A DNA stretch of 64,000 bases from Citrobacter youngae ATCC 29220 (GTDB taxonomy: Bacteria > Pseudomonadota > Gammaproteobacteria > Enterobacterales > Enterobacteriaceae): positions 250,049 through 314,048 of the forward strand of contig NZ_GG730301.1 in the NCBI RefSeq assembly GCF_000155975.1. Reading direction: 5' to 3'. Positions 18,740 to 56,494 of this stretch are shown here, piece by piece. The notes beneath the pieces are model-generated. The model did not search any database. It was not told the DNA's origin and was given only the letters and a program-made list of their open reading frames with translations. Made by a program: the position numbers and the translations under genes. Every line of letters begins with the position of its first letter. The first letter of the stretch is position 1.

Positions 18740-18920
18740 GTTGGTACATGGCTATAGTTTTTATAATCTGATGGGAAATTATCGTTAATAATCAACATTA
18801 ACAGACCAAAGCATCCCGCTCCGTAGCGACTCAGACGATGACAATGTATTCTGGAGAGGGGCAACGATAAATCCAGCCACTGACATTCCCCCCAGGTTTG
18901 GCCGCCAGAACGCGTACGGA

Positions 18921-20218: not shown

Positions 20219-20663
20219 AGTGTCTCTACTCTTAATGGTGCGCCAGGCGATGGGTAAACCATGATATCACTTAGCCCATAATAGCTACCAGCATGGACCC
20301 GATCCGACAATGAGAATCGCGAAGTGTTTCAATTTAGTATCATAATATAACAAGAATGGTAACTTTTTAATGAAAATAAAAACCATATAAATCAATTGAT
20401 TGTGTCTTTTTGGCTACTCTGCAAAGAAGAGAAAGATGAAAGAATGACCGCAAAGATGATTGCCATTAATTCTTTATGGACAGCGCAATATACTGCCTGA
20501 CGCCACCACGCGAAAACAACATGTGTCTGAACGCGTCCACGGCACCAGGGAATGCCGGTGGTAGATGTAGAGAAAGGATAAATGTCAGTTTGTTTGCAGG
20601 CTGACATTTATTTTTGGTGTTCAGTAAATTTTGATAAAACCATAATTTGCGGTAGAGAGTCCC
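20219..20663. other. 445-bp divergent intergenic region with a terminator-like hairpin
   Basis: This stretch separates the ToxR-like gene (minus) from the Crp-like gene (plus). The first 180 bp are very AT-rich and should hold the ToxR-like promoter. A plus-strand hairpin with a T-run lies 49 bases before the next start codon, so a short transcript or leader may end here. No convincing protein gene is seen. Confidence 0.55.
20579..20615 (+). terminator. Intrinsic-terminator-like hairpin upstream of the 20664 gene
   Basis: TAAATGTCAG and CTGACATTTA form a perfect 10-bp stem around a 12-nt loop, followed directly by TTTTT. It reads on the plus strand, and no annotated gene ends there. Confidence 0.7.
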
Positions 20664-26539: not shown

Positions 26540-26555
26540 TTAATGTTTACATTAA
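26540..26555. promoter_or_regulatory. Putative operator, copy 1: TTAATGT-TT-ACATTAA
   Basis: Two 7-bp arms are separated by two bases, 74 bases before the adhesin start. The 20-nt context 26537-26556 matches 44231-44250 at 19 of 20 positions. The protein that binds is unknown. Confidence 0.6.
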
Positions 26556-40883: not shown

Positions 40884-41799
40884 AATCAAAACTGATCTTC
40901 TTTTTAGCAGACATTAATGCTTTCAGGTTATCTGACATGGGAATATTTAAATTAATGGCTTTCGGCGGAATCGGTGACTGAAACCATTTATTGTACAGCG
41001 CAGTAAAGTCGTTGCTGGTCATCAGAGAGGACAGCGTGCTATCAACAAACTCTTTAAATTCTTTATCATGCAACGGGAGCAACAGGCCCGCTGGTAGCGG
41101 GGCGCTGAGCGCAATATCCGACAGCGCATAATCCTCAGGGGTTGGCGTTTGCGCAATCATCCCTTTGAGTAATACCGTGCTGGAGATCAGCGCAGAATAC
41201 TCACCGTTCTTGAGTTCATTGAAGGCAGTAATATTATTGGTATTGAGATGAATGTTGATATTCAAATCATTCGCGGCATTCACTTTTTGTAACTGCTCAA
41301 CGTAAATTGTGCCGCTTTTTACCAGTACGCTATGCCCCGAAAGTTCTGCCAGATTGTCGTTACTTTCATTTTTACGCATCACAAAGCGGGTGCTTGAAAA
41401 GTAAAAAGGCAGGGAGAACTCGCTGATGCTGTGACGGCTTTGCGAATAAAAGGCGGGTATGCACATGATGTCTGCCATGTGATTTTTAATCAGCACAAAC
41501 TGCGATGCCGAATTGGCCAGCACCCACTTTACTTTCAGGTTCTTAAGCTGGAGTTTTGTTTTAAGCGCACGGACGATACTGTTGCAGATGTCAATGGAGT
41601 AGCCCGCAGGGGCGTTGCCATTTTGCCACGAGAAGGGGAACGCATCATCCTGATAGCCAAGGGTGATGGTTTGCTTACTGGCGATCTGCTCCAGCGTATG
41701 CAGCTGCAGGGGCGTTCCCGCCAGGCATGGCGTAGCCCATGCCATCAGCACGCTGGCACATAGCAGGATACGTTTTGCCAGGCGAAGGATGTCAGACAT
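40867..41799 (-). CDS. Periplasmic solute-binding protein, SBP_bac_3 family (first of pair)
   Basis: This 310-residue protein has a signal peptide cut at about residue 27 (WATPCLAG). Its family features are ITLGYQDDAFPFSWQNGNAPAGYSIDIC, LSGHSVLVKSGTIYVEQL and a final FVDSTLSSLMTSNDFTALYNKWF. It resembles glutamate/aspartate-type binding proteins but has no cognate transporter. A near-perfect AAGGAGGT lies upstream of the ATG, so high expression is likely. It overlaps the upstream GGDEF-EAL gene by eight bases and the next binding protein by 17. It may present a ligand to the periplasmic domain of that GGDEF-EAL protein, as NspS does for MbaA in Vibrio (inference). Confidence 0.87.
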   Translation of the reverse strand: MSDILRLAKRILLCASVLMAWATPCLAGTPLQLHTLEQIASKQTITLGYQDDAFPFSWQNGNAPAGYSIDICNSIVRALKTKLQLKNLKVKWVLANSASQFVLIKNHMADIMCIPAFYSQSRHSISEFSLPFYFSSTRFVMRKNESNDNLAELSGHSVLVKSGTIYVEQLQKVNAANDLNINIHLNTNNITAFNELKNGEYSALISSTVLLKGMIAQTPTPEDYALSDIALSAPLPAGLLLPLHDKEFKEFVDSTLSSLMTSNDFTALYNKWFQSPIPPKAINLNIPMSDNLKALMSAKKKISFDYEKYN

Positions 41800-43984
41800 T
41801 GCTCAGACCTCCTTCAGTCGTCTCTCCGGCGAACGCGGAAAGTACCTCATGTTCGCGAAGCGGATAGCTAAAGAAATAGCCCTGAACATTCTGGCACTCT
41901 ATGTCGCGGAGAATATCGCGCTGCTGCGCGGTCTCTACGCCTTCAGCGGTGACCGACATGTCATACTTATGGGCAAACTGAATCAGCATCACAATTAAAT
42001 ACTGGCTGGCGTTATCCTGTTGCAGTTTATCGACCAACGTGCGGGCAATCTTGATGCGGGTAAAAGGATAGATCAGCAGGTAATCCAGAGCCGCGTACCC
42101 GGTACCTAAATCGTCCATGGCGATTTCAATGCCCAGAGCGCGGATCTCTTGCAGTACGGGTAAGGCGATTGATTTATCCAGTTTTTCGGATTCGGTAATT
42201 TCTATTTCAAGGCGTTCCGCCGCGAGCTGGCTGATGCGTAAGGCGTCTTTGATCACATCAACCAGCCCCGGACTATGCAGCTGGTAGGCTGATATGTTGA
42301 CGGCGATCCTGGTGTGCTCCGGCCATTTCGCCGCGGCTTCACAGGACTGACGAATAATCCATTCGCCTAAACGCACAATCAGACCGGAGCTTTCGGCAAT
42401 ATTGATAAAATAATCAGGGTAAATCATGCCCTTGGTGGGATGATTCCAGCGGATCAGCGATTCATAGCCATACACGCTTTCATCTGCCAGGTTGATGATT
42501 GGCTGGTAGTGAAGTTCGAACTCCTTGTTATCAATACCATCGATGATTTCCTGATTAATAAACAGGCTGTGGGTCTGCTTCATAACCATGCCGTCTTCAA
42601 AGAAATGGAAACAACCGCGGCCGTGATGCTTAGAGGCATACATAGCAAGGTCGGCATTGATCATCAACGTCGAGGTATTGTTGCCCTGATAAGGCGCAGT
42701 GGTGATGCCGATGCTACAGCTGATGGAAAAAGTATGAGTGCTCCAGGTAAACGGGGTACTCAGTGCGCGAATGATGCGCTTCGCCAGACGATTCGCTTCT
42801 CTGATGGCGTTGTCGCTGACATGCTGCAGGATGGCGAATTCATCTCCCCCCAGACGCGCCGCGATATCGTTGGGGCCCAGCAGCAGTTGCAGGCGCTGGG
42901 CCACGCTGATTAACAGTTCATCCCCGGCTTTATGGCCGAAGGTATCGTTAACCGGTTTGAAGTTATCGAGGTCAATCAGCAGCAGGTTGAACGGTTTTTC
43001 ATCCAGATGAATTTCACTGACGCGTTTATCTAACGCCTGGCCAAACGAAACGCGGTTGGGTAGTCCGGTCAGTGAATCATGGTGGGCCATATGCTCCATC
43101 TTTTGCGACATCTCATGCATGCGCTGCAGGTAGCCGCGCTCTTTCATGGCGACGCGTAATTTTTCAATGGCCCCAGCCAGATGCCCAATCTCGTCGTCCT
43201 GATCAAGATAGGGGGTGATGCAGTCCGTCTCTTCATGGGCGATGCGGGTGAGAGAGGCGATCAGCAACGGTACCGGTCGGAATAAGCGGCGCATAAACAG
43301 CGTTACCAGCGCCAGCGTCACCAGTAAAATCAGGACGAAAATGATACTGCTCTTTTTCAGCATCGCATCGTAGGTGGCGTACAACTCACTTTTTTTACCG
43401 ATGCTGCTGATCAGGCTCCCGAGGATCTCGCCGGAAGGCGTCAAAATAGGGACCGCGCTGATAAAGCACTCTTCGCCATTAATCTGGGCGAAACCAACAT
43501 AGTATTTGACCAGCACATCTCGCGGTAGACGACCGGAGAAGGAGATAATCCCTTCGCCGTCTTCGGACTTGTTATTAATGCCGATAAACCCTTTCTCCGG
43601 TGTATAAAGAAACAGCCAGGTGGGGCTGTGCGTCTGCACTGACGCCAGCGCCAGGACGTCTACCGGGTTATATCCGGTTTGCAGAATCGAATCGGTGTCG
43701 CCAATCTGCCTGTCGGAGACGATGCGCGAGATCTGCCCCGCATCGCTGGTTTCAACCGAAACGGTGGTATACACGCTGCGGATGATGTAGGTCATAATCT
43801 GTGCATTCGCCTCAGCTCGCTGTACCCACTGCTGATAAGAAAAGCTGTTTATCAGGCTCCAGTTGGTAAAGGCGCCAGCACTAAAAGCAATAACGATACC
43901 CACCAGCAAGAATTGCGTTATTTTGCCAGTGATGGAATGTTGCCACCCTTTTATTGCTTTAAGGGAAAACAGAGACTGTGCCAC
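41792..43984 (-). CDS. Membrane GGDEF-EAL protein with periplasmic sensor and HAMP
   Basis: This 730-residue cyclic-di-GMP enzyme has membrane segments at about 22-42 and 211-231 around a periplasmic domain of about 165 residues. HAMP (about 232-285) follows, then GGDEF with intact GGDEF at 379-383 but no Arg for an RxxD inhibitory site. The EAL domain has ESL (507-509), NISAYQ, EITESE, DDLGTGYAALDY and QGY; the usual LKID is IKIA. Both activities are possible; phosphodiesterase activity is less certain. It heads the operon with two binding proteins, lapG and lapD, so it likely sets the local cyclic-di-GMP seen by LapD. Confidence 0.92.
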   Translation of the reverse strand: MAQSLFSLKAIKGWQHSITGKITQFLLVGIVIAFSAGAFTNWSLINSFSYQQWVQRAEANAQIMTYIIRSVYTTVSVETSDAGQISRIVSDRQIGDTDSILQTGYNPVDVLALASVQTHSPTWLFLYTPEKGFIGINNKSEDGEGIISFSGRLPRDVLVKYYVGFAQINGEECFISAVPILTPSGEILGSLISSIGKKSELYATYDAMLKKSSIIFVLILLVTLALVTLFMRRLFRPVPLLIASLTRIAHEETDCITPYLDQDDEIGHLAGAIEKLRVAMKERGYLQRMHEMSQKMEHMAHHDSLTGLPNRVSFGQALDKRVSEIHLDEKPFNLLLIDLDNFKPVNDTFGHKAGDELLISVAQRLQLLLGPNDIAARLGGDEFAILQHVSDNAIREANRLAKRIIRALSTPFTWSTHTFSISCSIGITTAPYQGNNTSTLMINADLAMYASKHHGRGCFHFFEDGMVMKQTHSLFINQEIIDGIDNKEFELHYQPIINLADESVYGYESLIRWNHPTKGMIYPDYFINIAESSGLIVRLGEWIIRQSCEAAAKWPEHTRIAVNISAYQLHSPGLVDVIKDALRISQLAAERLEIEITESEKLDKSIALPVLQEIRALGIEIAMDDLGTGYAALDYLLIYPFTRIKIARTLVDKLQQDNASQYLIVMLIQFAHKYDMSVTAEGVETAQQRDILRDIECQNVQGYFFSYPLREHEVLSAFAGETTEGGLSNV

Positions 43985-44593
43985 GGATTATGTTAATTCC
44001 TGAAATGAGTATGCGGTGCTGAATTTAATTTTCTGTGATGACTTAATGAATATTATTGTTGCAAGAAAGTAGATGAAAGATGTGAAACGCCATGACGTAA
44101 CAAATAGCTAACATTGAACCGGCGAACGTAATGACAACAATAACGGTATGCGAATATAGATAACGCGGTGCTTTTCGTCAACAGGAAAAAATGCTTATAA
44201 AAATACATTTATTGCCAGGCGCTGTTGTTCATATTAATGTTGACATTAAAACCTCATGGAATATTTTTTGTTCGCGCTGAATGGTGGGGCTGAAAAATGG
44301 TCGTGGATGCGTCTTTTTTTGCCTGGTATCAATGGATTAGCGACTGTTTCATGTGGTGTTAACGTGATTCCCCTCCGCCAGGATGTCCATTTTTGTCTAT
44401 TAATGGGTATTTATTTATTGATTTGATATGAATAAGATGCTCGTCTCAATATAGAACCTTACTTTATTTTCTCAGTGCGCGGTCAATGTTGACAATTTTG
44501 CTATTGTTCAGCTCCTGATCCAAAAGGATTTGTTTGTGACATTCGAGTCTGGATTAAAGTCCTATTGGTATAGTGCATAGCGGATAAATTGAT
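43985..44593. promoter_or_regulatory. 609-bp divergent promoter region between the two cyclic-di-GMP operons
   Basis: No gene is found on either strand. The region is AT-rich and should carry promoters for the lapG/lapD operon (minus) and for the PdeF-like/chemosensory genes (plus). It holds the second copy of the palindrome found upstream of the adhesin. Confidence 0.7.
44234..44249. promoter_or_regulatory. Putative operator, copy 2: TTAATGT-TG-ACATTAA
   Basis: This is a 7-bp inverted repeat with a two-base spacer. The surrounding 20 nt (44231-44250) differ from 26537-26556 at one position only. It lies about 250 bp from the minus-strand start and 345 bp from the plus-strand start. Confidence 0.6.
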
Positions 44594-46786
44594 TTGGACG
44601 CGATAATAAATACTAACACAGCAAAAAGCATTCAAAAATGGTGCCTGCCGCTTGCTTTGCCTGGCCTGTTATATCCACTGGCACAATATCTTAACGGTTA
44701 TTGTCTTCTCAATAATAATATTTTAACAGTTTACGATCTCAAACTCGCCGTATTTTCCGCCGCATTAGTTCTGTTTGGTTTTCGGGTATTACCGGGATTT
44801 ATTCTGTTTCTCGCGTTGATGTTCGTGGTGGGGCCGCAAAGCGAGCGGGTGGATGCGCTGTGCCTGGTTATGGCCTCAACCTTTAGCTATGCCGCTTATC
44901 GTAAAGTGACGGGCAGACGCAGCTGCGCCAGTTTTGGCCGTATAAAAATCAGCCTGAATCGCCTGATCTGGCTATGCGGCTTCAACATCCTGCTCTATCT
45001 GTTGTTCAGCAGGATATTTGCCGTGTTCGTCACCCATGGGCATCGCCCGGATGTGGACAATATTCCGGTTTTGAGCCTGGAGATGCTGGTGCGTATTCAG
45101 GGGATCATCAACGGTTGCCTGACGGGCATCCCCTTTTTCTATAAAATTTATCGCATCATTCGTCGACCGTCTTACCTGTTGACCTTTATCAGAGCGATTG
45201 TCCTTCAGTGTAAAGGGAATATCACCGCCTTTGGCGTCAGCGTCTGGTGTATTTTGCTGATTTCACTGATGTTCTGTTTGACGTCACCGCACAGTCCGAA
45301 CATCTTTTTCTCTTTTTATAGCCTGATCCTGTTATTTCCATTGATGCTGTGGGGGGCGATTAAGATTGGTCACTCGTTCACCATGCTGGTGTGGACAGTC
45401 GTACTGATTATTTTAGGCAAACATAACGACAGCTATATCGCCAGCGACATCAATTTCATGCTGCATCAGGCGCTGGTTTCCACCCTTATTTTTGTCTTTT
45501 CACTCACCATTGTGATCATGGGTGCGTTGGCAAAATTTACCCGCCAGCGGTTTAACCAGGTCCTGCGTCTGGGTCTGACTGACCCGATGACGGGCATGGC
45601 GAACCTGCGCGCTTTGAAGACGGAGCTGTTTACTACCGAGGGGGCGACGGTATGTCTGATACAGATCCCCGAGCTGGAGCTCTTTTCGCGCCGCTATGGT
45701 TTTCATTTCCGCGCCCGCTACCAGAAGATCCTTGCTGAACATCTCAGACGTCATCTGATCAAAAGCGAGAAGGTCTATTATCACGCGGGCTATGATCTGC
45801 TTCTCCGCCTGGAAAATGGGACCTGGGAGCGGTTATGCGACCTGTATCAGGCTGCCAACAGCTTCCGCCTCTTCTACAACAATCACCGGCTGGGTTTTCG
45901 CAGCGGTTTGGGCTACTGCCTGATTAACGATCATAGCGATGATATCTACCAACTGGTGGGTAAGCTCGGCATGGTGGCTGGCTTATCGCTGACCAACGGC
46001 AGACCGGAAAACCTCGAAGCGCAGCACAGTCGGGTTCTTGGCAACCACATCGTTGATAAAACTGAAATCCGCACCGCGTTGCAAAATGCGCTGGACAATA
46101 ATGGCTTCGTTCTGATGGCCCAGCCGATAGTCAGTACCCATGGCGAAGCGCCATATCATGAAATATTGATCCGTATGCTCAACGAACGGGGGGAATTTAT
46201 TCCACCGAACAGCTTTCTGCCGGTTGCACATGATGCGGGGCTGGCGCCGGATATCGATCTGTGGGTCATCGAAAGCACCCTGAAATTCATGCGTACCCAT
46301 CCGCAGCGCTGTTTTGCCATTAACCTGGCGCCGGTGACGGTGTGTCGTTCAAATATTGTCACCAGGATCACTCAGCTCCTGCACGATTACGCGGTGGAGC
46401 CGCAGCGGATTATTTTTGAGATAACGGAAGCCGATACATTATCAGATAAAGAACAAACCGTGGAAACCCTGGCGTTAATACGCCAGCTGGGATGCCGCGT
46501 GGCGATTGATGATTTTGGCACCGGGTTTGCCAGTCATGCGCGTTTGATGAACATCGAAGCAGATATCCTGAAAATAGACGGCTCTTTTATTCGACGGATC
46601 ACCGAAAGCGAGATCAGCTATTACATCGTCGAGTCATTCTGCCGTGTCGCCGAAATGAAAAATATGCAGGTCGTCGCTGAATTTGTCGAAAACGCCAATA
46701 TTCAGGCATGCCTGGAAAAAATGAATGTTGGGTGGTTGCAGGGATACCACATTGGCAAGCCTACACCGCTGCTTACGCTGGAATAG
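44594..46786 (+). CDS. MASE1-type membrane phosphodiesterase with degenerate GGDEF (PdeF/YfgF-like)
   Basis: This 730-residue protein has eight or so membrane segments (about 17-310) of MASE1 type. The GGDEF domain is degenerate (HAGYDLLLRL, about 397-406). The EAL domain has the catalytic set: EIL (523-525), AINLAP, EITEAD, DDFGTG, LKIDGSF, AEFVE and QGYHIGKP. It resembles E. coli PdeF (YfgF) in plan and sequence, including YHEILIRM and SFLPVAHDAGL. It should hydrolyse cyclic-di-GMP. The TTG start is uncertain; upstream Shine-Dalgarno is weak. It lies 61 bp before the MCP gene and may be in the same transcript. Confidence 0.9.
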   Translation: MDAIINTNTAKSIQKWCLPLALPGLLYPLAQYLNGYCLLNNNILTVYDLKLAVFSAALVLFGFRVLPGFILFLALMFVVGPQSERVDALCLVMASTFSYAAYRKVTGRRSCASFGRIKISLNRLIWLCGFNILLYLLFSRIFAVFVTHGHRPDVDNIPVLSLEMLVRIQGIINGCLTGIPFFYKIYRIIRRPSYLLTFIRAIVLQCKGNITAFGVSVWCILLISLMFCLTSPHSPNIFFSFYSLILLFPLMLWGAIKIGHSFTMLVWTVVLIILGKHNDSYIASDINFMLHQALVSTLIFVFSLTIVIMGALAKFTRQRFNQVLRLGLTDPMTGMANLRALKTELFTTEGATVCLIQIPELELFSRRYGFHFRARYQKILAEHLRRHLIKSEKVYYHAGYDLLLRLENGTWERLCDLYQAANSFRLFYNNHRLGFRSGLGYCLINDHSDDIYQLVGKLGMVAGLSLTNGRPENLEAQHSRVLGNHIVDKTEIRTALQNALDNNGFVLMAQPIVSTHGEAPYHEILIRMLNERGEFIPPNSFLPVAHDAGLAPDIDLWVIESTLKFMRTHPQRCFAINLAPVTVCRSNIVTRITQLLHDYAVEPQRIIFEITEADTLSDKEQTVETLALIRQLGCRVAIDDFGTGFASHARLMNIEADILKIDGSFIRRITESEISYYIVESFCRVAEMKNMQVVAEFVENANIQACLEKMNVGWLQGYHIGKPTPLLTLE

Positions 46787-46847: not shown

Positions 46848-48938
46848 ATGAGTGACATTATTAAAGTGAAAAATCGAACGGCGGGCGCTACCGGTGTGGG
46901 ACCGCGCGCTCGGCTGCTCTCATGGCTGCACAATATCCATCCCGGTGTGGCGATGAAGCTCGGTATGATTCTGGTTTTTTGTATCGCAACGCTGCTGATT
47001 GGTGCCTCTTTTATACTATCGTCTTATCTTTCCGAGGAATTGCAGGCTAATGCTCTGGAGATGATAAAAACCAACACGCGTATTTTCCACAATAGCATTT
47101 CTAATGAATTCCAGCGCGTCACCCGCGACGCGGAGCATTACAGCAACGTTTATATTAATAATTACCAAAACGTTGCCGATAAGCCGCTGCGTTATATGGA
47201 CGCAACTGAATTAAAAGCGGTACTGAGCAATCCTAACACTAACGCGCATTTCACCGAATTAACCAGCGTATTCGCCAGCACATTTATTCTGCAAGGCGAG
47301 CAGTTTACGCGCGTTAGCAGCACGTTACTGGCGAGTTCGGGCAATACGGCCACCGCAACGGTGCTGGGGCATGATAACCCGGCATTGCCGCTACTTCTGA
47401 AAAACAAACCCTTTTCGGGTGTGGTCACGCTGTTCGGAAAGCAGTTTATTAGCCACTATGAGCCGATAGCCGATAAATATGGTCAGGTCGTTGGCGCGGT
47501 TGCGGTGGGATTCGATGTTAAGCAAAGTCTGCAACCGATCATTCAGCGTTTGTTGAATGTGCATGTGGGTAAAGAGGGTTACGCCTACGTGCTGGATGCC
47601 GGATTTGAACCGGGTCGTATGTTGGTCCATCCATCGCTGAGCAATCAGCAGGCGATTAATATCACCGATGCCAATGGCTATAAGCTGTTTGCCGATATCC
47701 TCGAACATAAAAATGGCATCACTTACTACAACTGGGTGAGTCGATACGGTACGCCGCCGAGGACCAAGGTTGCCGTCTATGAATATATCGATGGGATCGA
47801 CTGGATCATTGCCACCACCAGCTACGTTGATGATGTCTCCAGAAGCAGCAACCTGGTACGCAATGGCCTGTTGTTGTTCACGGCTTTCTTGTTACCCGTC
47901 ATTTTAGTGCTGATTGCCGTTGCCAGTCGTTATCTGATTTCACGCCGTTTAAACCGCGTACTGGGCATTGCACAGACCATCGCAAAAGGAGATTTAACGG
48001 TTGACGTTGAGATCGATCACCACGATGAAATCGGCGAACTGCTGAGCGCGGTAGAGATGATGCGTCAGCGCCTGCACTCGCTGGTCGGCGATATGGTTTC
48101 TCATGCGGATTCGGTACACCAGGCGTCACTGCATATTACCGAAGCGGTAGATGGTCAGGCGTCAACCAGCGTGGAAACGTCATCTTCGGTGGCCGAAATT
48201 ACCTCCACGATGGAAGAGCTATCGGCTTCATCGACACAGATCGCTGAGCACTCACGCGCGGTGGTGGATATTGCCAACCAGACGCTTGAGGATTGCAATA
48301 AAGGTTCAGAATCGATGTCGCAATTGCTGATGCGGATGACGGATATTGATACCGATAATCAGCAAAATATGCGTGAAATCATGATGCTCGGCAACAAGTC
48401 GACGGAAATCAGCCGCGTGATGGTGATCATCAACAGCGTTGCCGATCAAACGAAACTTATCGCCTTTAACGCCGCGCTGGAAGCGGCCAGCGCCGGAGAA
48501 GCCGGTAAGCGTTTCTCGGTGGTGGCGGCTGAAATTCGCCGTCTGGCCGACTCCGTGACGGAATCGACGGTTGAGATCGAGAATAAAATTAGCGAGATCC
48601 AAAACGCGATCAATCGCCTGGTGCTGAACGCGGAAAAAGGCGGCGAGAGCATTAAAGCGGGAGCCAGAGCCTGTAAAGTCAGCGCTGAACATCTGAACGA
48701 CATCGTCGTTACCGCAGAGCAAACCTCTACGGCGGCGCTACAAATTTCACTATCAACTCAACAGCAGAAAACGGCGAGTAATCAGGTGGTTATGGCGCTG
48801 CGTGAGATTGTCGTTGCCAGTAACTATACCTCGCAATCGATCAAAGACATTTTGGTTGTCAGCCAGGATATGACGCAACTGTCGAAAGCGCTGAAAGAGG
48901 CGTCGACGTCATTCACTTTGACGGAAACGGATGCATGA
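46848..48938 (+). CDS. Methyl-accepting chemotaxis protein (Cache sensor), input of a Wsp-like pathway
   Basis: This 696-residue receptor has membrane segments at about 37-60 and 343-366, around a periplasmic region of about 280 residues with a Cache-type fold (GYAYVLDAGFEPGRMLVHPS, GIDWIIATTSYVDD). HAMP follows, then a signalling domain with the hairpin tip IAFNAALEAASAGEAGKRFSVV. There is no C-terminal CheR/CheB tether pentapeptide. Its stop overlaps the cheB start (ATGA). It is the only receptor in the operon and equivalent to WspA in role. Confidence 0.93.
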   Translation: MSDIIKVKNRTAGATGVGPRARLLSWLHNIHPGVAMKLGMILVFCIATLLIGASFILSSYLSEELQANALEMIKTNTRIFHNSISNEFQRVTRDAEHYSNVYINNYQNVADKPLRYMDATELKAVLSNPNTNAHFTELTSVFASTFILQGEQFTRVSSTLLASSGNTATATVLGHDNPALPLLLKNKPFSGVVTLFGKQFISHYEPIADKYGQVVGAVAVGFDVKQSLQPIIQRLLNVHVGKEGYAYVLDAGFEPGRMLVHPSLSNQQAINITDANGYKLFADILEHKNGITYYNWVSRYGTPPRTKVAVYEYIDGIDWIIATTSYVDDVSRSSNLVRNGLLLFTAFLLPVILVLIAVASRYLISRRLNRVLGIAQTIAKGDLTVDVEIDHHDEIGELLSAVEMMRQRLHSLVGDMVSHADSVHQASLHITEAVDGQASTSVETSSSVAEITSTMEELSASSTQIAEHSRAVVDIANQTLEDCNKGSESMSQLLMRMTDIDTDNQQNMREIMMLGNKSTEISRVMVIINSVADQTKLIAFNAALEAASAGEAGKRFSVVAAEIRRLADSVTESTVEIENKISEIQNAINRLVLNAEKGGESIKAGARACKVSAEHLNDIVVTAEQTSTAALQISLSTQQQKTASNQVVMALREIVVASNYTSQSIKDILVVSQDMTQLSKALKEASTSFTLTETDA

Positions 48939-50002
48939 ACAGCGGCAACATACGGGTGCTGATCCTCGACCTGGACAGCGCATCACGCAACGAGCTGGTC
49001 AGGCAACTGGAAGAGCACCCGGATATTAAGGTGGTGGGGCAAGCAGCACACCGCCGACAGGCGATCCGCTTGTTGCAGCAGCTGATGCCCGACCTGCTGA
49101 TTCTGACGCTGGACACGTCAGGCGCCGAAAACGTCGAGGTTGTGGAAACGATCATGGCGACCAGCGCTATACCCATCCTTGTGATGAGATTTTGTCCAGA
49201 AAAACAATGGGATGAGGATTATATTTCCCGCGGCGCGCTGGCGGTGCTGCACCATAGCAGCGATTTCCCGCTCTCCACCGATGCGCTGCATCGCAAAGTG
49301 GAATTGCTGGTCGGTGTAAAAGTGATTCGTCATATCAAGGGATTACGTCACCCAACCGAACCGGTAATGCCCGCCGCGCGTCCGACGATGAACGCCGTAA
49401 AGACGACGCAGGACTGGCCGTTTGTGCTGGCGATTGCCTGTTCGACGGGGGGGCCGCAGGCACTGAGCAAGCTATTACAGGATCTCCCCGGTACGTTTCC
49501 GTGCCCGGTGCTCATCGCCCAACACATTGCCGATGGCTTCGCAAAAAATATGGTGCACTGGCTGGACAGCGTGACCGAACTGAAGGTGCGCCTGGCGCAG
49601 GAAGACGACCGGGTCGAAGCGGGATATGTCTATATTTTACCGCCGGAGCAGCATCTGATCGTCAAAAGCAATCAACGACTGGCGGCAATCCCCAGACAGG
49701 AAAGCGATGTCTATCATCCCAGTTGCAATCTATTGCTGGAGTCGGTGGCTGAGGTGTTTCGCGAAAAGGCCGTCGGGCTGATTATGACGGGCATGGGCAG
49801 CGATGGCTGTCGTGGCATTGAGCTTATTTTCCGCCGGGGAGGGAGAACGCTGGCGCAGGACGAAGAAAGCTCGGTGGTATTCGGTATGAATAAGAACGCG
49901 ATCGACAAGCAGCTCATCCACCGCACGATCCCGCTGAACGGCCTCGCCAGCGTCTTGCTTTCGATGGCGTTGCACGGGCATTTTGAGAGTAAATTGCCAT
50001 GA
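48935..50002 (+). CDS. CheB-type methylesterase with degenerate receiver domain (WspF-like)
   Basis: This 355-residue protein has an N-terminal receiver-like domain (about 6-125) and a C-terminal methylesterase (about 163-350). The catalytic triad is intact: Ser170 (ACSTGGPQAL), His197 (AQHIADGF) and Asp290 (GMGSDG). The receiver looks damaged: the acidic pair reads Asp12-Leu13, and the phosphoacceptor position aligns with Thr58 (PDLLILTLDTSG). Asp60 could substitute only with a two-residue shift. Activity may therefore not depend on phosphorylation. The start overlaps the MCP stop and the stop overlaps the cheR start (both ATGA). Confidence 0.92.
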   Translation: MNSGNIRVLILDLDSASRNELVRQLEEHPDIKVVGQAAHRRQAIRLLQQLMPDLLILTLDTSGAENVEVVETIMATSAIPILVMRFCPEKQWDEDYISRGALAVLHHSSDFPLSTDALHRKVELLVGVKVIRHIKGLRHPTEPVMPAARPTMNAVKTTQDWPFVLAIACSTGGPQALSKLLQDLPGTFPCPVLIAQHIADGFAKNMVHWLDSVTELKVRLAQEDDRVEAGYVYILPPEQHLIVKSNQRLAAIPRQESDVYHPSCNLLLESVAEVFREKAVGLIMTGMGSDGCRGIELIFRRGGRTLAQDEESSVVFGMNKNAIDKQLIHRTIPLNGLASVLLSMALHGHFESKLP

Positions 50003-51411
50003 TCCCCAATCTTCCCGATTACGCCCGTTTGATAAAAGAACGGGTGGGTTTGCACTTTGATAACGCAATGGAAGCGTTGCTGAAATCGGCGCTGAAACGG
50101 CGTATGAGCGAACGAAATATCAGTAATTACTATGAATATTATGAACAACTGCGTATGTCGCAGGATGAGTTCGATAACTTCATTACGCTGATTACCATTA
50201 ACGAAACCTATTTTTTCCGCGAAAGCGATACGCTGGATCTGATCTGCGATAAGTGGGTCCCGCGTCTGCTGCAACAGCGCAGCGGCCCGCTGCGTATTCT
50301 CAGCGCCGGATGCTCTTCCGGAGAAGAGGCCTATTCGCTGGCGATTAAACTGCATGAGAAATACCAGGGCGAAATGGCCCAGCAGATTGAAATTTACGGT
50401 TGTGATATTGACCCGGTAATCCTGGCAAAAGCCAGAAACGCCAGCTATTCAAGCTACTCGTTTCGCGGCGTCGACCCGGGCATTCAGCAGCGCTATTTTA
50501 CCCGCTCAGGAAACCTCTACCGGCTGCATGATGCGATCCGTGAGAAAGTCTCGTTTCACCGCACCAACATTATAAAAGAACAGCTGTTGCCGGAAGTGGA
50601 CATCATTTTGCTGCGCAACGTGTCCATCTATTTCGACACGCCAACGCGTCGTGAACTGCACGGTAATTTGTCGAAAATGCTCCAGCCTCAGGGGGCTTTA
50701 TTTTTTGGCAACGCGGAAACGCTGGCCAACAATTTCGACATCCTGAAGCTGGAGCAGGAAGAGGGCATTTTTTATTTTTGCCACCATCGTGAAGCGGCGA
50801 AGGTAGCGCCCGTGCCCCGAGCTGCAGCGCGCGTTGCGCCGCCGAGAACGGTGGTTGAACTGGACGCTCCCGCGCCAACGGTGCAGCAGAATAATGACTG
50901 GCTGAAGAAAGCGCGCGCCTGTCTCGATGAAAAATGTTTTTCTGAAGCTGAAAAGTGTATTGCCTGCGTATTACGCGACGATCCCCGTAATCCGGATGCG
51001 CTGCTGATTCAGGGCGTCATTGCCCTCGAACAGCGTCAGTTTTCTCAGACCGCCGGAAACGCGCAGAAAATCCTCGCCCAGGATGAGTGGTCGGCAGAAG
51101 CTAAAATGCTGCTTGGCATGGCGATGATGTGGCAGCGTCAGACGCAACAGGCTATCGCCTGGTTTAAACAGGTGGTTTATCAGGAGCCAGGCTACTGGCC
51201 AGCGCACTATTATCTGGCCGAAATGTACCGTCAAAGCGAGTTACGCCAGCCTGCGCAGCGTACGTATCGCGTGGTGATGCAGTTACTGAACGACGAAATG
51301 AACAACCCTTCTACGGTTTGTCGTCTGCGTTTGCCGATGGTGTTTCCCGGCAATACGTTTCGTTTTCTCTGTGAACATCAACTGGCGCAATTTGCCCACC
51401 AAAGTGGCTAA
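49999..51411 (+). CDS. CheR-type receptor methyltransferase with TPR tail (WspC-like)
   Basis: This 470-residue protein has CheR N and catalytic domains (about 1-265), with NETYFFRE, the SAM loop ILSAGCSSGEEAYSLAI and LLRNVSIYFD (canonical N-Y-I/L-F region). After a Pro/Ala linker there are about three TPR units (about 295-430). The CheR-TPR fusion is the form found in Pseudomonas WspC. It adds methyl groups to the adjacent receptor for adaptation. Confidence 0.94.
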   Translation: MIPNLPDYARLIKERVGLHFDNAMEALLKSALKRRMSERNISNYYEYYEQLRMSQDEFDNFITLITINETYFFRESDTLDLICDKWVPRLLQQRSGPLRILSAGCSSGEEAYSLAIKLHEKYQGEMAQQIEIYGCDIDPVILAKARNASYSSYSFRGVDPGIQQRYFTRSGNLYRLHDAIREKVSFHRTNIIKEQLLPEVDIILLRNVSIYFDTPTRRELHGNLSKMLQPQGALFFGNAETLANNFDILKLEQEEGIFYFCHHREAAKVAPVPRAAARVAPPRTVVELDAPAPTVQQNNDWLKKARACLDEKCFSEAEKCIACVLRDDPRNPDALLIQGVIALEQRQFSQTAGNAQKILAQDEWSAEAKMLLGMAMMWQRQTQQAIAWFKQVVYQEPGYWPAHYYLAEMYRQSELRQPAQRTYRVVMQLLNDEMNNPSTVCRLRLPMVFPGNTFRFLCEHQLAQFAHQSG

Positions 51412-51422
51412 TAAGAGCGATT

Positions 51423-53540
51423 ATGGCTATCGATCTGAAAAAATTCGTTCTGCGCTTTATTGATGAAGGGAGAGGTCATTTGCAGACGATCAGCGAAGGG
51501 GCGTTTCTCCTCTCCGCTGATGAACACACTGAAGCCTGGATAGGTGAGATGTTTCGCGCCGCGCACACGCTGAAAGGGGGCGCGCGGATGCTGAAACTGC
51601 AAAGTATCGCTGATGTCACTCATTATCTTGAGGATGTATTAAGTGAGCTGCGCGATAACAAACTGACGCCGGACAGGGTGCTGGGCAATTTGATTCATGA
51701 GTCCGTGGAGTATCTTTCGGGCCAGTTGACCCAGCTTTTTGTCAGCGAGGGCGATAATCAGTTGCCACCGGCGGATGCCGGACTGTGCGAACGTCTGGCC
51801 CGCGCCAGCCGGGGGGAAACCGTCACTGCGGCGCTGGAGTCGCCAGCGGCTACGGACAAGCCTGCGGCGGCCCTCTCCGTGGACTCAGGTATCAAGCAGG
51901 CCGATTTTGTCCGGGTAAAACTGAACAAGCTGGATGGCCTGATCGACATCCTTGGCGAGGTGCTGGCCGGGCACGATCGCCTTGAACAGCAGATCCAAAA
52001 CCTGAGTCAGTTGGTTCCCCGATTGCCGGGCCTGAGCGCCGAACAGCTTCGCCAGCAGATCCACGATTTTAGCGCGCAGTTGAAAGAGAGCGTTCAGCTC
52101 CAGCATTTGCAGATGTTTGAACTGTACGACGTGGCGGCGCGGATCCGCATGCTTCCGCTTTCAACGTTATTTGAGCCGATCTCCCTGCAGGTCAGCGAGC
52201 TGGCTGCCACGCTGAACAAACAGGTGGTGTGCCGCTTCGTCGGCGGCGAAGTGGAAATCGACCGGCAGCTTATTGACCGGCTATCGGAGTCGCTGACGCA
52301 TTTGCTGCGTAACGCGGTCGATCACGGCATTGGCGAAATTGACGAACGCCTGGCGCTGGGGAAATCAACGCGCGGCACCATTACCATCACCACTCAGCAG
52401 GACGGCAGCGGAATATTACTGCGCATCGAAGATGACGGTCGCGGTCTGAATTATGAGGCCATCAGCGCGAAGGCGGTCAGTAAAGGCCTGGTTCCCGCAT
52501 CAATGGCCGGACAACTCTCCGAGCAGGAGTGTAATGAGCTGATTTTTCATCCCGGTTTTTCCACCAGCAAGATTGTCTCCGAGCTTTCCGGGCGCGGCGT
52601 TGGCCTTGATGTGGTGCGTAAAACGGTGGTGACCGACCTGCAAGGTGATTTGCAGGTATACAGTCACCCGGGCGTCGGAACCAGCTTTAGCCTGCGCCTG
52701 CCGGTCTCGCTCACGATGATGCGAATTATGCAATTTGAAGAGCAGGGACACCTGTTCGGACTGGCGGCACAGTATGTGGTCGAGGTGGTGGAATGTACCC
52801 CGGAGGGGATTAGCGACATCGCCGGGCGACCGGCCATTATTCTGCATAACGAGTTTATTCCGGTGGTTTGCGCAGGCGCTCTGCTGGGCATTCACGATCG
52901 TCAGGGGAACCACTCATCGGCGGGACAGCGTTTAATCATCGTGCAGAACCAGTACAGCAAAATGGCGCTGCGGGTGGATAAGCTGCTCGATGAACGCAAG
53001 ATGATGATCAAACCGTTACCGAAGCATATGCAGCAGCAGTCGCTGGTCTCCGGCATGGTACAGACGCCGGATAACCAACTGGTCAGTATCCTGCAAGTGC
53101 CTGCGCTGATGGCGATGGCGCAGCAGTCGCGGCAAACCAGCGCCCCGGCGCCAGCGGCGAGCGTGGCGCAAGATGCCTGGCACGTGCTGGTGGTCGATGA
53201 TTCTCTCAATACCCGCGAGATAGAAAAAAATGTGCTGGAAGCGCATGGCTATCAGGTCACGTTGGCAGAAGACGGGCTGTCAGGGCTGCAAAAAGCGAAA
53301 CTGACCCAGTTTGATGCCGTACTGACGGATGTCGAAATGCCGCTTATGGATGGTTTTACCTTCACCAAAGCGTTGCGCGCAGAGAAAAATTACCAGCACA
53401 CTCCCATCATCATCGTGACGTCCCGCGCGAAGGAAGAAGACCGGCGAAGGGGGATTCAGGTCGGGGCGGACGCCTACATCGCCAAAGGCGATTTCGAGCA
53501 GGACAGTTTAATCAAAACATTAAAAATGCTTTTGTGCTGA
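51423..53540 (+). CDS. Hybrid histidine kinase CheA-REC (WspE-like)
   Basis: This 705-residue kinase has an N-terminal Hpt domain (phospho-His48 in AAHTLKGGARML), no P2 domain, and a dimerisation region. The ATPase follows (N-box HLLRNAVDHGI, DDGRGLN, GRGVGLDVVR, GVGTSFSLRLP), then a CheW-like domain (about 440-575) and a C-terminal receiver with Asp636 (LTDVEMPLMDG). This layout is that of WspE. It should pass phosphate to its own receiver, the CheY protein and the GGDEF regulator encoded next. Confidence 0.95.
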   Translation: MAIDLKKFVLRFIDEGRGHLQTISEGAFLLSADEHTEAWIGEMFRAAHTLKGGARMLKLQSIADVTHYLEDVLSELRDNKLTPDRVLGNLIHESVEYLSGQLTQLFVSEGDNQLPPADAGLCERLARASRGETVTAALESPAATDKPAAALSVDSGIKQADFVRVKLNKLDGLIDILGEVLAGHDRLEQQIQNLSQLVPRLPGLSAEQLRQQIHDFSAQLKESVQLQHLQMFELYDVAARIRMLPLSTLFEPISLQVSELAATLNKQVVCRFVGGEVEIDRQLIDRLSESLTHLLRNAVDHGIGEIDERLALGKSTRGTITITTQQDGSGILLRIEDDGRGLNYEAISAKAVSKGLVPASMAGQLSEQECNELIFHPGFSTSKIVSELSGRGVGLDVVRKTVVTDLQGDLQVYSHPGVGTSFSLRLPVSLTMMRIMQFEEQGHLFGLAAQYVVEVVECTPEGISDIAGRPAIILHNEFIPVVCAGALLGIHDRQGNHSSAGQRLIIVQNQYSKMALRVDKLLDERKMMIKPLPKHMQQQSLVSGMVQTPDNQLVSILQVPALMAMAQQSRQTSAPAPAASVAQDAWHVLVVDDSLNTREIEKNVLEAHGYQVTLAEDGLSGLQKAKLTQFDAVLTDVEMPLMDGFTFTKALRAEKNYQHTPIIIVTSRAKEEDRRRGIQVGADAYIAKGDFEQDSLIKTLKMLLC

Positions 53541-53562
53541 TGGCGCAAAATCGAGAGAGAAG

Positions 53563-53925
53563 ATGCGAATTTTATTAGTTGATGATGATCTTTTTGCGGC
53601 AGAGCTGGCCTCCATTTTTTTGCAAATGGACGGCTACGACGTGGTGATTGTGGAAAGCGCGATTTCCGCCTTAGCGTGCCTGGATTCGGATAACAGTATC
53701 GACCTGGTGATTAGCGACCTGCATATGCCGGAGATCGGGGGGCTGGATTTGCTGGCGCTGTTACGCGCTCAGAATTGGTCTAAGCCCTTTATTTTACTCA
53801 GCGCGAATGAGGTGACGGCCAGCGATCTCCTGTACGACCGTTGGGTAAAAAAAGATGAAAACCTGGCGGAAAATCTGGGGGCGGCAGTAAATGCGCTCCT
53901 GCAACCGTCCGTGGTTACTGAATAA
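53563..53925 (+). CDS. Stand-alone CheY-like receiver
   Basis: This 120-residue single receiver domain has the acidic triplet Asp7-Asp8-Asp9, phosphoacceptor Asp52 (LVISDLHMPEIGG), Ser80 and Lys96. All key residues are present. The Pseudomonas Wsp operon has no such gene, so this may be a phosphate sink or a second output. It lies 13 bases before the GGDEF regulator gene. Confidence 0.9.
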   Translation: MRILLVDDDLFAAELASIFLQMDGYDVVIVESAISALACLDSDNSIDLVISDLHMPEIGGLDLLALLRAQNWSKPFILLSANEVTASDLLYDRWVKKDENLAENLGAAVNALLQPSVVTE

Positions 53926-53938
53926 GCCTGGGCGTTTG

Positions 53939-55615
53939 ATGAAACAAGAAAATAAGCACATAGCGATGGCGGCTGCGCAGGAAAAAATAGCGCGTCTGCG
54001 CCAGGGCTTTTTACGTCGCATCCCCGACATGCTGGCGCAGGCGGAAAGGCTGCTCGTTCAATTAGTCGCTGAACCCAGCGAAGCCTGTCGTAAACAGCTG
54101 CATATTCTGCTGCACAGTATTCATGGTTCGGCAGGGTCCTTTGGTTTTAGCCCGCTGGCGAATGCCTCAGCGGAAGGTGAGCGTTTACTGACAGAGCCGG
54201 AAACTGGCCCCGGTACGCTGCATTACGATGAGCTTCGGCGCATCCTTCGTTGGTTGTATACCTTGACTCAGGAACAGCTCAACCTTGAGCACCGTATCAG
54301 CGATACGGATTTCACTTTACCAATCGCCGCGCAGCGCCCGGAAGGGGGATACGTGCGACGGGCCAGCAAGCCTATCTACCTGTGTGATGATGACGTTGAC
54401 CAGGTTGAGTTGCTCGCTACCCAACTGCGCTGTTTCGGTTTTACCTGTCATGTGTTTGCGAACACGCAGGATTTTACCCAGGCCGTGTTGTCGCAACCGC
54501 CAGCCGTGGTGATTATGGATGTCAGCTTTCCGGACAACGCCTACGGCGGGCCGCTGGCGATGTCGGATCTGAAACAGAAAGTGGGCAAGCCTTTTCCGGT
54601 GCTGTTTCTCTCGTGCCACAGCGATTTTAACGCCCGCATCAACGCCATTAAGTCCGGCTGTGATGGTTATTATGTAAAGCCGGCTTCGATTACCGATTTA
54701 GTACAGGAGCTTCACCGCCTGACCCAACCGTCGCTGAAAAAGCCTTATCAGGTGCTGTTGATCGATGATGAACCGGCGGTGGCGGAATACAACGCGGAAA
54801 GGCTGCGCATGGCGGGCATGGAAGTACATGTCCTGGAAAAACCGCACTATTTACTGCACGTGCTGAACGCGCAACCGATCGATCTGGTGTTGATGGATTA
54901 CCACATGCCGGAGTTCAGCGGCGAGGAGCTGACGAAACTGATTCGCCAAATACCGCAGCACATCGGCCTGCCTATCGCCTATCTCTCCAGCGAGACTAAC
55001 AAGCATGCGCAGTTGGGCGCGATGAGCATCGGCGCGGAGGATTTTATTCTCAAACAGGCCGATCCTGAGGAACTCATCCGTGCCGTAACGATCCGCGCGG
55101 AAAGAATGCGCGTCCTGCGTGCCCGCATGTCGCAGGACAGCCTGAGCGGATTATATAACCACTCCACGACCACTCATTATCTCAAAAGCGCGATTGCCGA
55201 GTCGAACTACAGCGGCAACCCGTTCTGTATGGTGATGGTGGATCTGGATCGCTTCAAAAGCATTAATGATACCTATGGCCATGCGGTCGGCGACCAGGTG
55301 ATTGTTGGGATTTCGCAGCTGTTTTCCCATCGCCTGCGTAGCACGGATATCGTTGGTCGTTACGGGGGTGAAGAGTTTGTCATCATTATGCCTGGCACCA
55401 GCAGCGACAAGGCGGCGCGGGTGGTCGAGCGATTGCGCAGGGACTACGAGCAGGTCACCTTCTCCGTGAATGACGCCAGCTTTCACAGTACCTTCAGCGC
55501 GGGTATCGCGCAGTGGCAGTTTGGCGATCGTGTTGAAACGCTGCGCGAACGCGCCGACCAGGCGCTGTATGCCGCGAAGCAAAATGGTCGTAACACCTTC
55601 TGCATTGCTGAGTGA
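53939..55615 (+). CDS. Hpt-REC-REC-GGDEF diguanylate cyclase (output of the pathway)
   Basis: This 558-residue protein has an Hpt-like domain (about 15-115; phospho-His59 in HSIHGSAGSFG) and a receiver with Asp194 (VVIMDVSFPD). A second receiver carries Asp320 (LVLMDYHMPEFSG). The cyclase domain (about 395-555) has an intact GGEEF at 476-480 and an RxxD inhibitory site (Arg467-Asp470) five residues before it. It corresponds in role to WspR but has two receivers like PleD plus an extra Hpt. An in-frame start at 53891 would run back into the cheY gene, so ATG 53939 is chosen. Confidence 0.93.
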   Translation: MKQENKHIAMAAAQEKIARLRQGFLRRIPDMLAQAERLLVQLVAEPSEACRKQLHILLHSIHGSAGSFGFSPLANASAEGERLLTEPETGPGTLHYDELRRILRWLYTLTQEQLNLEHRISDTDFTLPIAAQRPEGGYVRRASKPIYLCDDDVDQVELLATQLRCFGFTCHVFANTQDFTQAVLSQPPAVVIMDVSFPDNAYGGPLAMSDLKQKVGKPFPVLFLSCHSDFNARINAIKSGCDGYYVKPASITDLVQELHRLTQPSLKKPYQVLLIDDEPAVAEYNAERLRMAGMEVHVLEKPHYLLHVLNAQPIDLVLMDYHMPEFSGEELTKLIRQIPQHIGLPIAYLSSETNKHAQLGAMSIGAEDFILKQADPEELIRAVTIRAERMRVLRARMSQDSLSGLYNHSTTTHYLKSAIAESNYSGNPFCMVMVDLDRFKSINDTYGHAVGDQVIVGISQLFSHRLRSTDIVGRYGGEEFVIIMPGTSSDKAARVVERLRRDYEQVTFSVNDASFHSTFSAGIAQWQFGDRVETLRERADQALYAAKQNGRNTFCIAE

Positions 55616-55626
55616 AAGGAGAAAAC

Positions 55627-56151
55627 ATGAGCCAACAGCTGGAGCACATTCTCGCCCTGAATCACGGTGAAAAGCCGGAGTGTGAAAACGTTGATGAACC
55701 GCAGCGAACGCTGGTGCTGTTTCAGCTGGCGGGTAAGAATTTTGCATTTTATGGGGCGCAGATAAAAGAGATCCTCGCGGAGCGTCCTATTTCCTGGGTT
55801 CCCTGCTGTGCGCCAATGCTGGAAGGCGTCATCAACTACCGTGGACGCGTGGAGTCGGTGATGAGGCTGGACGGCCTGATCGACAAACCTGACGTTAACC
55901 CGGCAGGTAAACGCACCATCCTGATTGGTTGCGCCGAAAAAATGCAAAGCGGGATCCTGATAGATAAGCTGATTGATGTGCTGGAAGTCACCGAAAGCCA
56001 GATCCACTTGCCGGGAGACTCGCTGCCTCCGGCGCTGCAGACTATCGCAGTGGGTGTGGTTAACGTGGCGGAAACCTGGTTCACGCTGCTCGATCTGAAT
56101 CTGGTTTTTGCACGTTATCAGGAGACCAGCGGTTATGCCGACTCTCACTAA
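55627..56151 (+). CDS. CheW-type scaffold protein 1
   Basis: This 174-residue CheW-domain protein links the MCP to the CheA kinase. Motifs include LVLFQLAGKNFAFYGAQIKEIL, WVPCCAPMLEGVINYRGRV and VVNVAETWFTLLDLNLVF. AAGGAG six bases before the ATG at 55627 decides the start over a GTG at 55612. The first 30 residues are an extra tail. It overlaps the next cheW by 17 bases. Confidence 0.92.
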   Translation: MSQQLEHILALNHGEKPECENVDEPQRTLVLFQLAGKNFAFYGAQIKEILAERPISWVPCCAPMLEGVINYRGRVESVMRLDGLIDKPDVNPAGKRTILIGCAEKMQSGILIDKLIDVLEVTESQIHLPGDSLPPALQTIAVGVVNVAETWFTLLDLNLVFARYQETSGYADSH

Positions 56152-56494
56152 TCTGGCTGTGGTGCGTATTACCCTCGGGACGCTCAATTTTTATATTCCG
56201 GCAAACCAGGTCGGGCGCTGCTCGCTGGTGACACAGGTTGCGCCTGAAATCCCGCGTTTTAGCCAGTGGCTGGGCATTGCCGATGAGCCGCAGCAGGGCA
56301 GGCATTTGCACTTGTTTGTCCCGCAGAGCGGGGTTGAGACCGGCTGGTACCTATGGGGGCAGCTGGAGAATGTCATCTTGCCTGGCGATACTATTTTTGC
56401 CGTACCGCCGCTTCTGGTGCGCAACTGTCATCTGCCTGCGCTACGTGCGCTGGTGGGCAGCGAAGCCTTCAGCCCGTTGTTAAGCTGGCGCTGA
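56135..56494 (+). CDS. Short, divergent CheW-like protein 2
   Basis: This 119-residue protein starts MPTLTNLAVVRITLGTLNFY, with AGGAG 10 bases upstream of the ATG at 56135. It keeps the CheW N-terminal beta pattern (FYIPANQVGRCSL) and the VPP..LVRNCHLPALRALV end. It is about 40 residues shorter than usual and lacks the G-x-I-x-x-R-G core of the first CheW. Wsp-type operons also carry two CheW proteins (WspB and WspD). It is the last gene of the operon and converges on sitD. Confidence 0.72.
   Translation: MPTLTNLAVVRITLGTLNFYIPANQVGRCSLVTQVAPEIPRFSQWLGIADEPQQGRHLHLFVPQSGVETGWYLWGQLENVILPGDTIFAVPPLLVRNCHLPALRALVGSEAFSPLLSWR

Follow-up and report, generated by a model that had tools for sequence, protein, structure and literature searches.

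What does a chemosensory operon with its own diguanylate cyclase do beside the genes of a large surface adhesin, and to which known pathway does it belong? The question is raised by a stretch of 64000 nucleotides from Citrobacter youngae ATCC 29220 (contig NZ_GG730301.1, positions 250049 to 314048; the whole stretch is called the window below, and positions count from its first letter), which comes from a genome of 5.15 Mb in 10 contigs. The original prediction, made from the letters of the window, had seen a Wsp-like operon of unusual composition, an independent or rearranged chemosensory route to cyclic di-GMP (c-di-GMP) that was physically linked to its likely target adhesin. We propose, with a probability of roughly 0.7, that a pathway of the alternative cellular function (ACF) type, of the kind described as cluster 2 of Halomonas, has been built into a Lap island of about 35 kb, and that the c-di-GMP made by its cyclase would act through the receptor LapD to retain the adhesin. 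Open reading frame (ORF) and domain searches found the chemosensory genes at the predicted place and in the predicted order, and the operon reads as follows.

44594..46786, plus strand: MASE1-EAL protein (by domain search), heading the chemosensory operon, with no Pfam GGDEF match between MASE1 and EAL
46848..48938, plus strand: chemoreceptor (methyl-accepting chemotaxis protein, MCP) of the 40H class, with Cache_3-Cache_2 sensor and HAMP, without an NWETF tail
48935..50002, plus strand: CheB methylesterase, its receiver lacking the phospho-accepting Asp
49999..51411, plus strand: CheR methyltransferase with C-terminal TPR
51423..53540, plus strand: CheA kinase with C-terminal receiver, His48 and Asp636 retained
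53563..53925, plus strand: stand-alone CheY-like receiver
53936..55615, plus strand: Hpt-REC-REC-GGEEF diguanylate cyclase with an RxxD I-site
55612..56151, plus strand: CheW coupling protein, CheW1 (PF01584)
56135..56494, plus strand: small protein at the position of Halomonas CheW3, with no CheW match in its sequence

Relatives of this operon were collected by a CheB-alignment scan of genome_contigs (84980 species), which returned 15 loci, five from Citrobacter and ten from Buttiauxella, the closest named CheB being that of Citrobacter werkmanii (96%), which makes a source within the C. freundii complex probable, although the genome's own records may be absent from the scan. Both patterns used by the scan fall within the CheB receiver as it occurs in these same loci, so more distant carriers may have escaped it. 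The gene-neighbourhood comparison that had been put forward as a check gave the nine genes listed above, in unchanged order, in each of the 15 named loci, and comparisons with four Citrobacter loci gave ratios of non-synonymous to synonymous substitution (dN/dS) of 0.02–0.25 across the operon; together these data rule out both a chance arrangement and an operon in decay. The MASE1-EAL gene ends 61 bp upstream of the receptor gene on the same strand and is present in every one of the 15, so that the operon very probably starts earlier than had been noted, with the gene at 44594–46786. The genes had also been described as joined mostly by ATGA overlaps, which is correct for the MCP/CheB and CheB/CheR junctions and not for the rest: the cyclase/CheW1 junction is a GTGA overlap, provided that the GTG is the start, and the remaining junctions between the chemosensory genes are gaps of 10–22 bp or, in one case, a 17-bp overlap. 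The cyclase start was set at 53936 by choice, and taken as given in the searches, because the longer ORF from 53891 would overlap cheY. The phosphotransfer and catalytic residues of CheA (His48 and its receiver), of the cyclase (Hpt His60, both receivers, GGEEF and RxxD) and, with motif E-I-L, of the EAL domain in the MASE1-EAL protein (those residues checked) are retained in all 16 Citrobacter and Buttiauxella sequences, as are those of CheY, save the Lys, which is present in 15 of the 16. Scans for promoter-like sites (15, against 11.3 with an sd of 3.2 in shuffles) and terminator-like sites (14, against 14.5 in shuffles) were uninformative.

To place the operon among the chemosensory classes we used a CheA tree of 51 rows (66 candidates minus 10 that were too short and five duplicates), built by a quick IQ-TREE search with Shimodaira–Hasegawa-like approximate likelihood ratio test (SH-aLRT) supports and no bootstrap, with the flagellar CheA of the window's genome as root. 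The window CheA and 16 other rows labelled cluster 2 (17 in total) lie on one side of a branch with an SH-aLRT of 99, together with a single unlabelled row, L125, whose stretch is cut off by a contig end. The three rows from loci in Wsp order fall in a separate branch of 15 rows (SH-aLRT 100), and a branch with an SH-aLRT of 99 divides the cluster-2 and Wsp rows from the genome's flagellar CheA and from L039, L040 and L041. Grouping with flagellar systems had been named as the result that would count against a non-flagellar route to c-di-GMP, and the window CheA falls outside the flagellar CheA. In addition, the receptor carries two symmetric 14-residue inserts relative to the two MCPs encoded at the flagellar locus of this genome, which places it in the 40H length class, and the same inserts are found in the receptor of the Halomonas-type locus L091. 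The flagellar chemotaxis class is ruled out by the CheA tree and by this 40H, not 36H, receptor.

Chemosensory cluster 2 of Halomonas titanicae KHS3 was described in 2018, classed with the ACF pathways and reported in Enterobacteriales among others (Gasperotti et al., PMC5907407; ACF pathways and CheR-TPR proteins are also treated in PMC3447774). The window, all 15 relatives, L091 and Halomonas sp. PA16-9 share with it the order MCP-cheB-cheR-cheA-cheY-DGC (diguanylate cyclase)-cheW2-cheW3, and the parts correspond as well, with a 40H receptor, CheA-REC, CheR-TPR, an Hpt-REC-REC-GGDEF cyclase and a small last gene. The cyclase trait of that cluster, an Hpt-REC-REC-GGDEF protein with phosphorylatable residues in all three of the phosphotransfer domains, is present in the window. 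Outside the Enterobacteriaceae the complete order was found in six loci (L091, L117, L118, L120, L122 and L124; L122 has 1.1 kb of unmatched sequence between cheR and cheA), and further in L121, with a CheR that falls into two ORFs. In the stretch of L123 neither CheW gene is present, and in Halomonas sp. PA16-9 the cluster is 85–97% identical to L091, with the cyclase read in two ORFs. On the CheA tree, the gene order and the domains, we assign the operon to the Halomonas cluster 2 lineage, of the ACF type and distinct from both the Wsp and the flagellar classes. The basic system is already known, because the features in the window match the 2018 description.

Four things set the Citrobacter and Buttiauxella operons apart from Halomonas cluster 2: the CheB receiver without its phospho-Asp, the EAL gene at the head of the operon, the position inside a Lap island, and a receptor sensor unlike that of L091, to which it does not align (the match begins at residue 382). 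The sensor has weak matches in the PDB, all of them to chemoreceptor sensor domains. For the cyclase, the best match of solved structure is PleD (residues 272–554) and not WspR. PleD of Caulobacter, which is not known to belong to a chemosensory array, has the same tandem receivers and GGEEF as the window cyclase. It differs in having no Hpt domain (PMC5907407).

The last gene had been counted as the second of two CheW genes. The label CheW is right for CheW1; the last gene has no CheW match in its sequence, the Pfam CheW model finding none of its 16 members at E values up to 10 (HMMER, filters on), and a profile comparison with CheW1 giving a probability of 0.7 of 100 (E 0.078). Its start is most likely at 56135, because a Met at this position is invariant in all 16 members. 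The Halomonas counterpart, cheW3, is described in PMC5907407 as small, without sequence homology to known proteins and modelled as CheW-like, and the second-CheW label for the window gene would follow from its position and from that modelling. The original prediction had overlooked this absent similarity, as well as the upstream EAL gene and the altered CheB receiver.

The phospho-accepting Asp of the CheB receiver is replaced in all 16 Citrobacter and Buttiauxella sequences, by Thr in 15 and Ala in one. Every sequence has also lost the Lys and the second acid-pair residue to substitution, with the Ser-His-Asp triad of the esterase retained throughout. Among 14 other CheBs in the same alignment the Asp is kept in 13, the exception being L099, and it is kept in eight of eight examined CheBs of cluster-2 loci outside the Enterobacteriaceae and in the CheB of Halomonas sp. 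PA16-9. We treat its absence as a loss specific to this lineage within the cluster-2 type, since the gene order, CheA clade, cyclase and 40H receptor of cluster 2 were all found, and the accessible passages of PMC5907407 name no such criterion. A CheB without the phospho-Asp also occurs in L128, a locus of different arrangement, so that the loss has arisen more than once; L099 and L128 are two chemosensory loci of other types with receivers lacking the Asp.

CheB is stimulated by phosphorylation of its receiver, and in a wspF (cheB) mutant the Wsp pathway is locked active (PMC7698151). By analogy, kinase-driven demethylation is probably absent from the Citrobacter and Buttiauxella pathway. The degenerate receiver is under purifying selection, with dN/dS values of 0.066, 0.067, 0.072 and 0.185 in four Citrobacter comparisons, and in these comparisons the esterase domain is held more strictly (0.023–0.037). 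This retention fits another account, in which the receiver has become a protein-interaction domain for a new partner, such as the CheR TPR or the CheW3-like protein, and adaptation is regulated by other means. Stretches such as ENVE, invariant in three aligned sequences but not in all 16, also speak for it; against it, a partner is not known, and purifying selection of this degree (0.07–0.19) would fit a purely structural role as well, so we regard an interaction domain as possible and somewhat doubtful.

Does the pathway then act on the neighbouring adhesin? The genes that bear on this lie to the left of the operon, and are listed here up to the divergent region that parts the two.

21311..22684, minus strand: HlyD-family type I secretion adaptor, LapC-type by position (TIGR01843 over cut-off)
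22671..24887, minus strand: type I secretion permease/ATPase, LapB-type by position (TIGR03375 over cut-off)
24953..26296, minus strand: TolC-family outer-membrane protein, LapE-type by position (TIGR01844 over cut-off)
26540..26555: palindrome with half-sites TTAATGT and ACATTAA around TT, in the LapE/adhesin divergent region
26629..34737, plus strand: large Lap-type adhesin of 2702 residues, first TAAG at residue 103, no Pfam match
35381..37240, plus strand: Ig-like/invasin-domain protein of 619 residues between the adhesin and lapD (PF02369, PF09134, domain-3 repeats)
37351..39285, minus strand: LapD c-di-GMP receptor (NF045673 at 1017 bits, cut-off 1020; PF16448 over cut-off)
39295..39993, minus strand: LapG periplasmic cysteine protease (NF045674 over cut-off)
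39990..40889, minus strand: family-3 solute-binding protein whose gene has a 4-bp overlap with lapG (PF00497; in 15/15 named loci, partial in L051)
40867..41799, minus strand: family-3 solute-binding protein (PF00497; PDB 2ia4, E 5e-37; in 15/15 named loci)
41792..43984, minus strand: GGDEF-EAL protein, first gene of the lapG/lapD operon (in 15/15 named loci)
44234..44249: palindrome with the same half-sites around TG, in the region separating the divergent operons, where it overlaps a −35-like TTGACA

The features of a LapD/LapG circuit found here are LapG, a LapD that scores 3 bits below the NF045673 cut-off, and an adhesin with TAAG at residue 103. This tetrapeptide we take to be the LapG cleavage motif, as at the LapA site of Pseudomonas fluorescens. 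In LapD, RGGEF replaces GGDEF and KVL replaces EAL. The set corresponds to the P. fluorescens LapA-LapD-LapG system in its LapD, LapG, type I secretion system and adhesin with TAAG near the N-terminus, and differs from it in that lapG and lapD stand in an operon with the GGDEF-EAL gene and two solute-binding protein genes, divergent from the chemosensory operon. The lapG/lapD operon is tightly coupled, and 609 bp of divergent region separate it from the chemosensory one. The pair of solute-binding proteins (window 39990–43984) sits in an operon without a permease gene, so that the two might sense ligands in the periplasm on behalf of the GGDEF-EAL protein; the nearest NCBIfam model for the one at 40867..41799 is NF008063 (glutamate/aspartate), below cut-off.

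The distribution of these genes binds the two systems together. In all 15 named loci the chemosensory operon diverges from the GGDEF-EAL, solute-binding protein and LapG genes (in L060 LapG runs past the end of the stretch). Among 17 Citrobacter genomes, CheB (E ≤ 1e-60), LapG and LapB were all found in the same ten and, at the limits used, were all absent from the other seven. Two of the ten carriers (G304 and G307) have a second, more distant LapB and LapG, 57–65% identical, at G307:C1:2187984-2199719 and G304:C30/C48, which is possibly a second Lap system. When 295 genomes of the order were searched, CheB matches with more than 60% identity came only from the window's genome and two g7 (Buttiauxella) genomes. 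As for a spread into Escherichia coli or on plasmids, the CheA DNA had no match in 20395 E. coli records, and the cyclase had four at E ≤ 1e-60 in 72556 plasmid records (Halomonas sp. PA16-9, Azospirillum, Niveispirillum and Roseibium); around the Azospirillum and Niveispirillum matches the same cluster was not present within 9 kb on either side.

Operon-less genomes allowed the limits of the island to be drawn. A metal ATP-binding cassette (ABC) transporter adjoins its right end; its families score below cut-off and we presume it to be sit, and all 17 Citrobacter genomes have its binding protein. The sit sites of the seven operon-less genomes were searched with 34 window genes or parts of genes, retaining matches above 55% identity. 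The far side was mutS in five of them (L133, L135, L137, L138 and L139); L134 shows there the genes that adjoin mutS in the window, mutS itself not being found in that stretch, and in L136 the far flank was not seen. In this 34-gene search none of the seven sites had a Lap or che gene, bar one fragment in L134 (L134:3804-4649): next to sitD this genome retains the C-terminal part of the EAL gene, at 75% identity, a remnant that suggests the deletion of an ancestral island. Because six of the seven show the flank without Lap or che genes, this fragment apart, the island in the window spans about 21311–56494, or some 35 kb.

Its right edge varies. L046, L047, L049 and L050 carry about 2.7 kb of other genes (about 17580–20270) between the last gene and sit, and in L048 and the window almost nothing lies there; in L046 and L047 these genes include an M20-peptidase-like one (by eye). 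Towards mutS, the window has small ORFs and two putative regulators (Trans_reg_C and HTH_46) at 15375–21269, a stretch that is variable among Citrobacter genomes without the island. In Buttiauxella the downstream genes differ, nine of ten loci having an acetyl-CoA acetyltransferase-like gene (by eye), and neither mutS nor sit was found in the stretches of the five loci tested, which indicates that the module lies at another genomic place in that genus. A small GGDEF/GGEEF protein on the same strand as the operon precedes the acetyltransferase-like gene in eight of the ten (L052–L055 and L057–L060, about 17600–19700), and might serve the module as an additional cyclase. Directly past LapD, two Buttiauxella genomes have a large repeat protein, cut by a contig end in both.

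The two halves of the island also have a palindrome in common. The pattern TTAATGTNNACATTAA has one exact copy at 26540–26555, which lies 73 bp ahead of the adhesin start, and another at 44234–44249. Inspection of the operon-side alignment by eye brought up the motif before it was tested, which makes the control for that side non-independent; the site on the adhesin side came out of the search. An exact site appeared in none of 2000 dinucleotide shuffles per region, and the whole genome has three exact sites and five with up to one mismatch, against one for the reversed control pattern. On the adhesin side the palindrome is exact in seven of nine other Citrobacter genomes, with one mismatch in one and two in another, and on the operon side it is exact in three of the five named Citrobacter loci, with one mismatch in the other two. 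These sequences suggest that one regulator probably binds at both divergent promoter regions. The physical link to the Lap adhesin is thus stronger than the original prediction had it, given the joint presence of CheB, LapG and LapB in the same ten of 17 Citrobacter genomes, the like arrangement in ten Buttiauxella loci and the palindrome at both promoter regions.

In the pathway that we propose, the 40H receptor with its periplasmic Cache sensor would form an array of its own with CheW and CheA-REC, and CheA would phosphorylate the GGEEF cyclase on its Hpt and receiver domains, with a sink or brake provided by CheY and the CheA receiver. The c-di-GMP made would bind the neighbouring LapD and cause it to hold LapG, as c-di-GMP-bound LapD is established to restrain LapG in Pseudomonas; with LapG held, the TAAG would not be cut and the adhesin would stay on the surface. 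The EAL and GGDEF-EAL proteins would lower or tune the signal, the latter perhaps tuned in turn by the two solute-binding proteins. CheR and CheB would still set receptor methylation, with CheB no longer phosphorylated at the usual site and the negative-feedback arm cut, and a regulator on the palindrome at both promoter regions would link the expression of pathway, adhesin and secretion system. For the step from cyclase to LapD, it is the linkage, the co-inheritance and the common palindrome that speak. We also entertain, tentatively, the bolder idea of a self-contained attachment module, with a dedicated array, c-di-GMP read mainly by LapD, the kinase-to-CheB feedback cut to give a non-adapting or kinase-independently adapted switch by which the cell would be committed to attachment, and one palindrome-binding regulator for sensor, effector and adhesin.

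Several observations weigh against this proposal. The pattern in ten of 17 Citrobacter genomes is that of one linked island and not of ten independent events, and linkage attests co-inheritance, not signalling, the cyclase–LapD connection being one that we infer. Two g8 genomes (G126 and G198) have lapD-lapG without the chemosensory operon, and the stretches of at most 20 kb obtained around cluster-2 operons elsewhere showed no Lap genes, for which reason the cluster-2 lineage is not intrinsically a Lap regulator. CheB is missing from the stretch seen of locus L092, which falls in the CheA clade of the window, so that CheB is not essential in this lineage. The palindrome is not confined to the island, because the third exact copy (G000:C9:103365-103380, L154) lies between glnA-like and typA-like genes (by eye), and on the operon side none of the ten Buttiauxella loci has it at one mismatch or fewer in the stretches examined, the adhesin side being outside them; two of these loci have a match with two mismatches in the same region.

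The cluster-2 operons without Lap genes and the two g8 genomes also favour the view that the c-di-GMP is for general use, in flagella or other effectors, with the Lap genes adjacent merely through a shared island. Such a view does not readily accommodate the same arrangement, divergent towards lapG, in two genera with different downstream genes, nor the palindrome common to the adhesin promoter region in Citrobacter, and we consider it unlikely. That the operon is a rearranged Pseudomonas-type Wsp, with shuffled genes and a fused cyclase, is very improbable and is rejected, since in spite of a parts list alike in outline (40H receptor, CheR-TPR, CheA-REC, CheB and cyclase) the CheA tree parts the two with strong support on each side and leaves the window CheA outside the Wsp-order branch, the gene order is identical in distant taxa and is not the wspABCDEFR of Wsp, and the cyclase is not of the single-receiver WspR type, the cyclase of L098 (the one of the three Wsp-order loci validated by its WspR) matching P. 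aeruginosa WspR (3bre) over its length with an E value of 2.8e-108. Of the earlier phrase ‘independent or rearranged’, a separate lineage with its own fixed order stands and a rearranged Wsp of unusual composition does not. Wsp, too, is given in PMC5907407 as an ACF-type system with a receptor, CheW, CheR-TPR, CheA-REC, CheB and a receiver-GGDEF cyclase; the window operon differs from it in its separate CheA branch, its other order, its extra CheY and its cyclase with an Hpt and two receivers.

What goes beyond the publications seen is the loss of the CheB Asp, the placement in a Lap island together with an EAL gene, and the common palindrome; among the matches listed from the open-access literature, none dealt with this operon in Citrobacter or Buttiauxella. 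Later work from the Halomonas group has reportedly dealt with the cluster-2 receptor Htc10. The 2018 paper left the cluster-2 pathway without a known stimulus or output (PMC5907407), and the adjacent Lap circuit in the DNA of Citrobacter and Buttiauxella suggests such an output, with species that have and lack the island offering natural comparisons. In addition, the loss of the CheB phospho-site amid an otherwise intact phosphorelay poses a testable question, namely how a chemosensory array behaves when its methylesterase feedback has been cut in nature.

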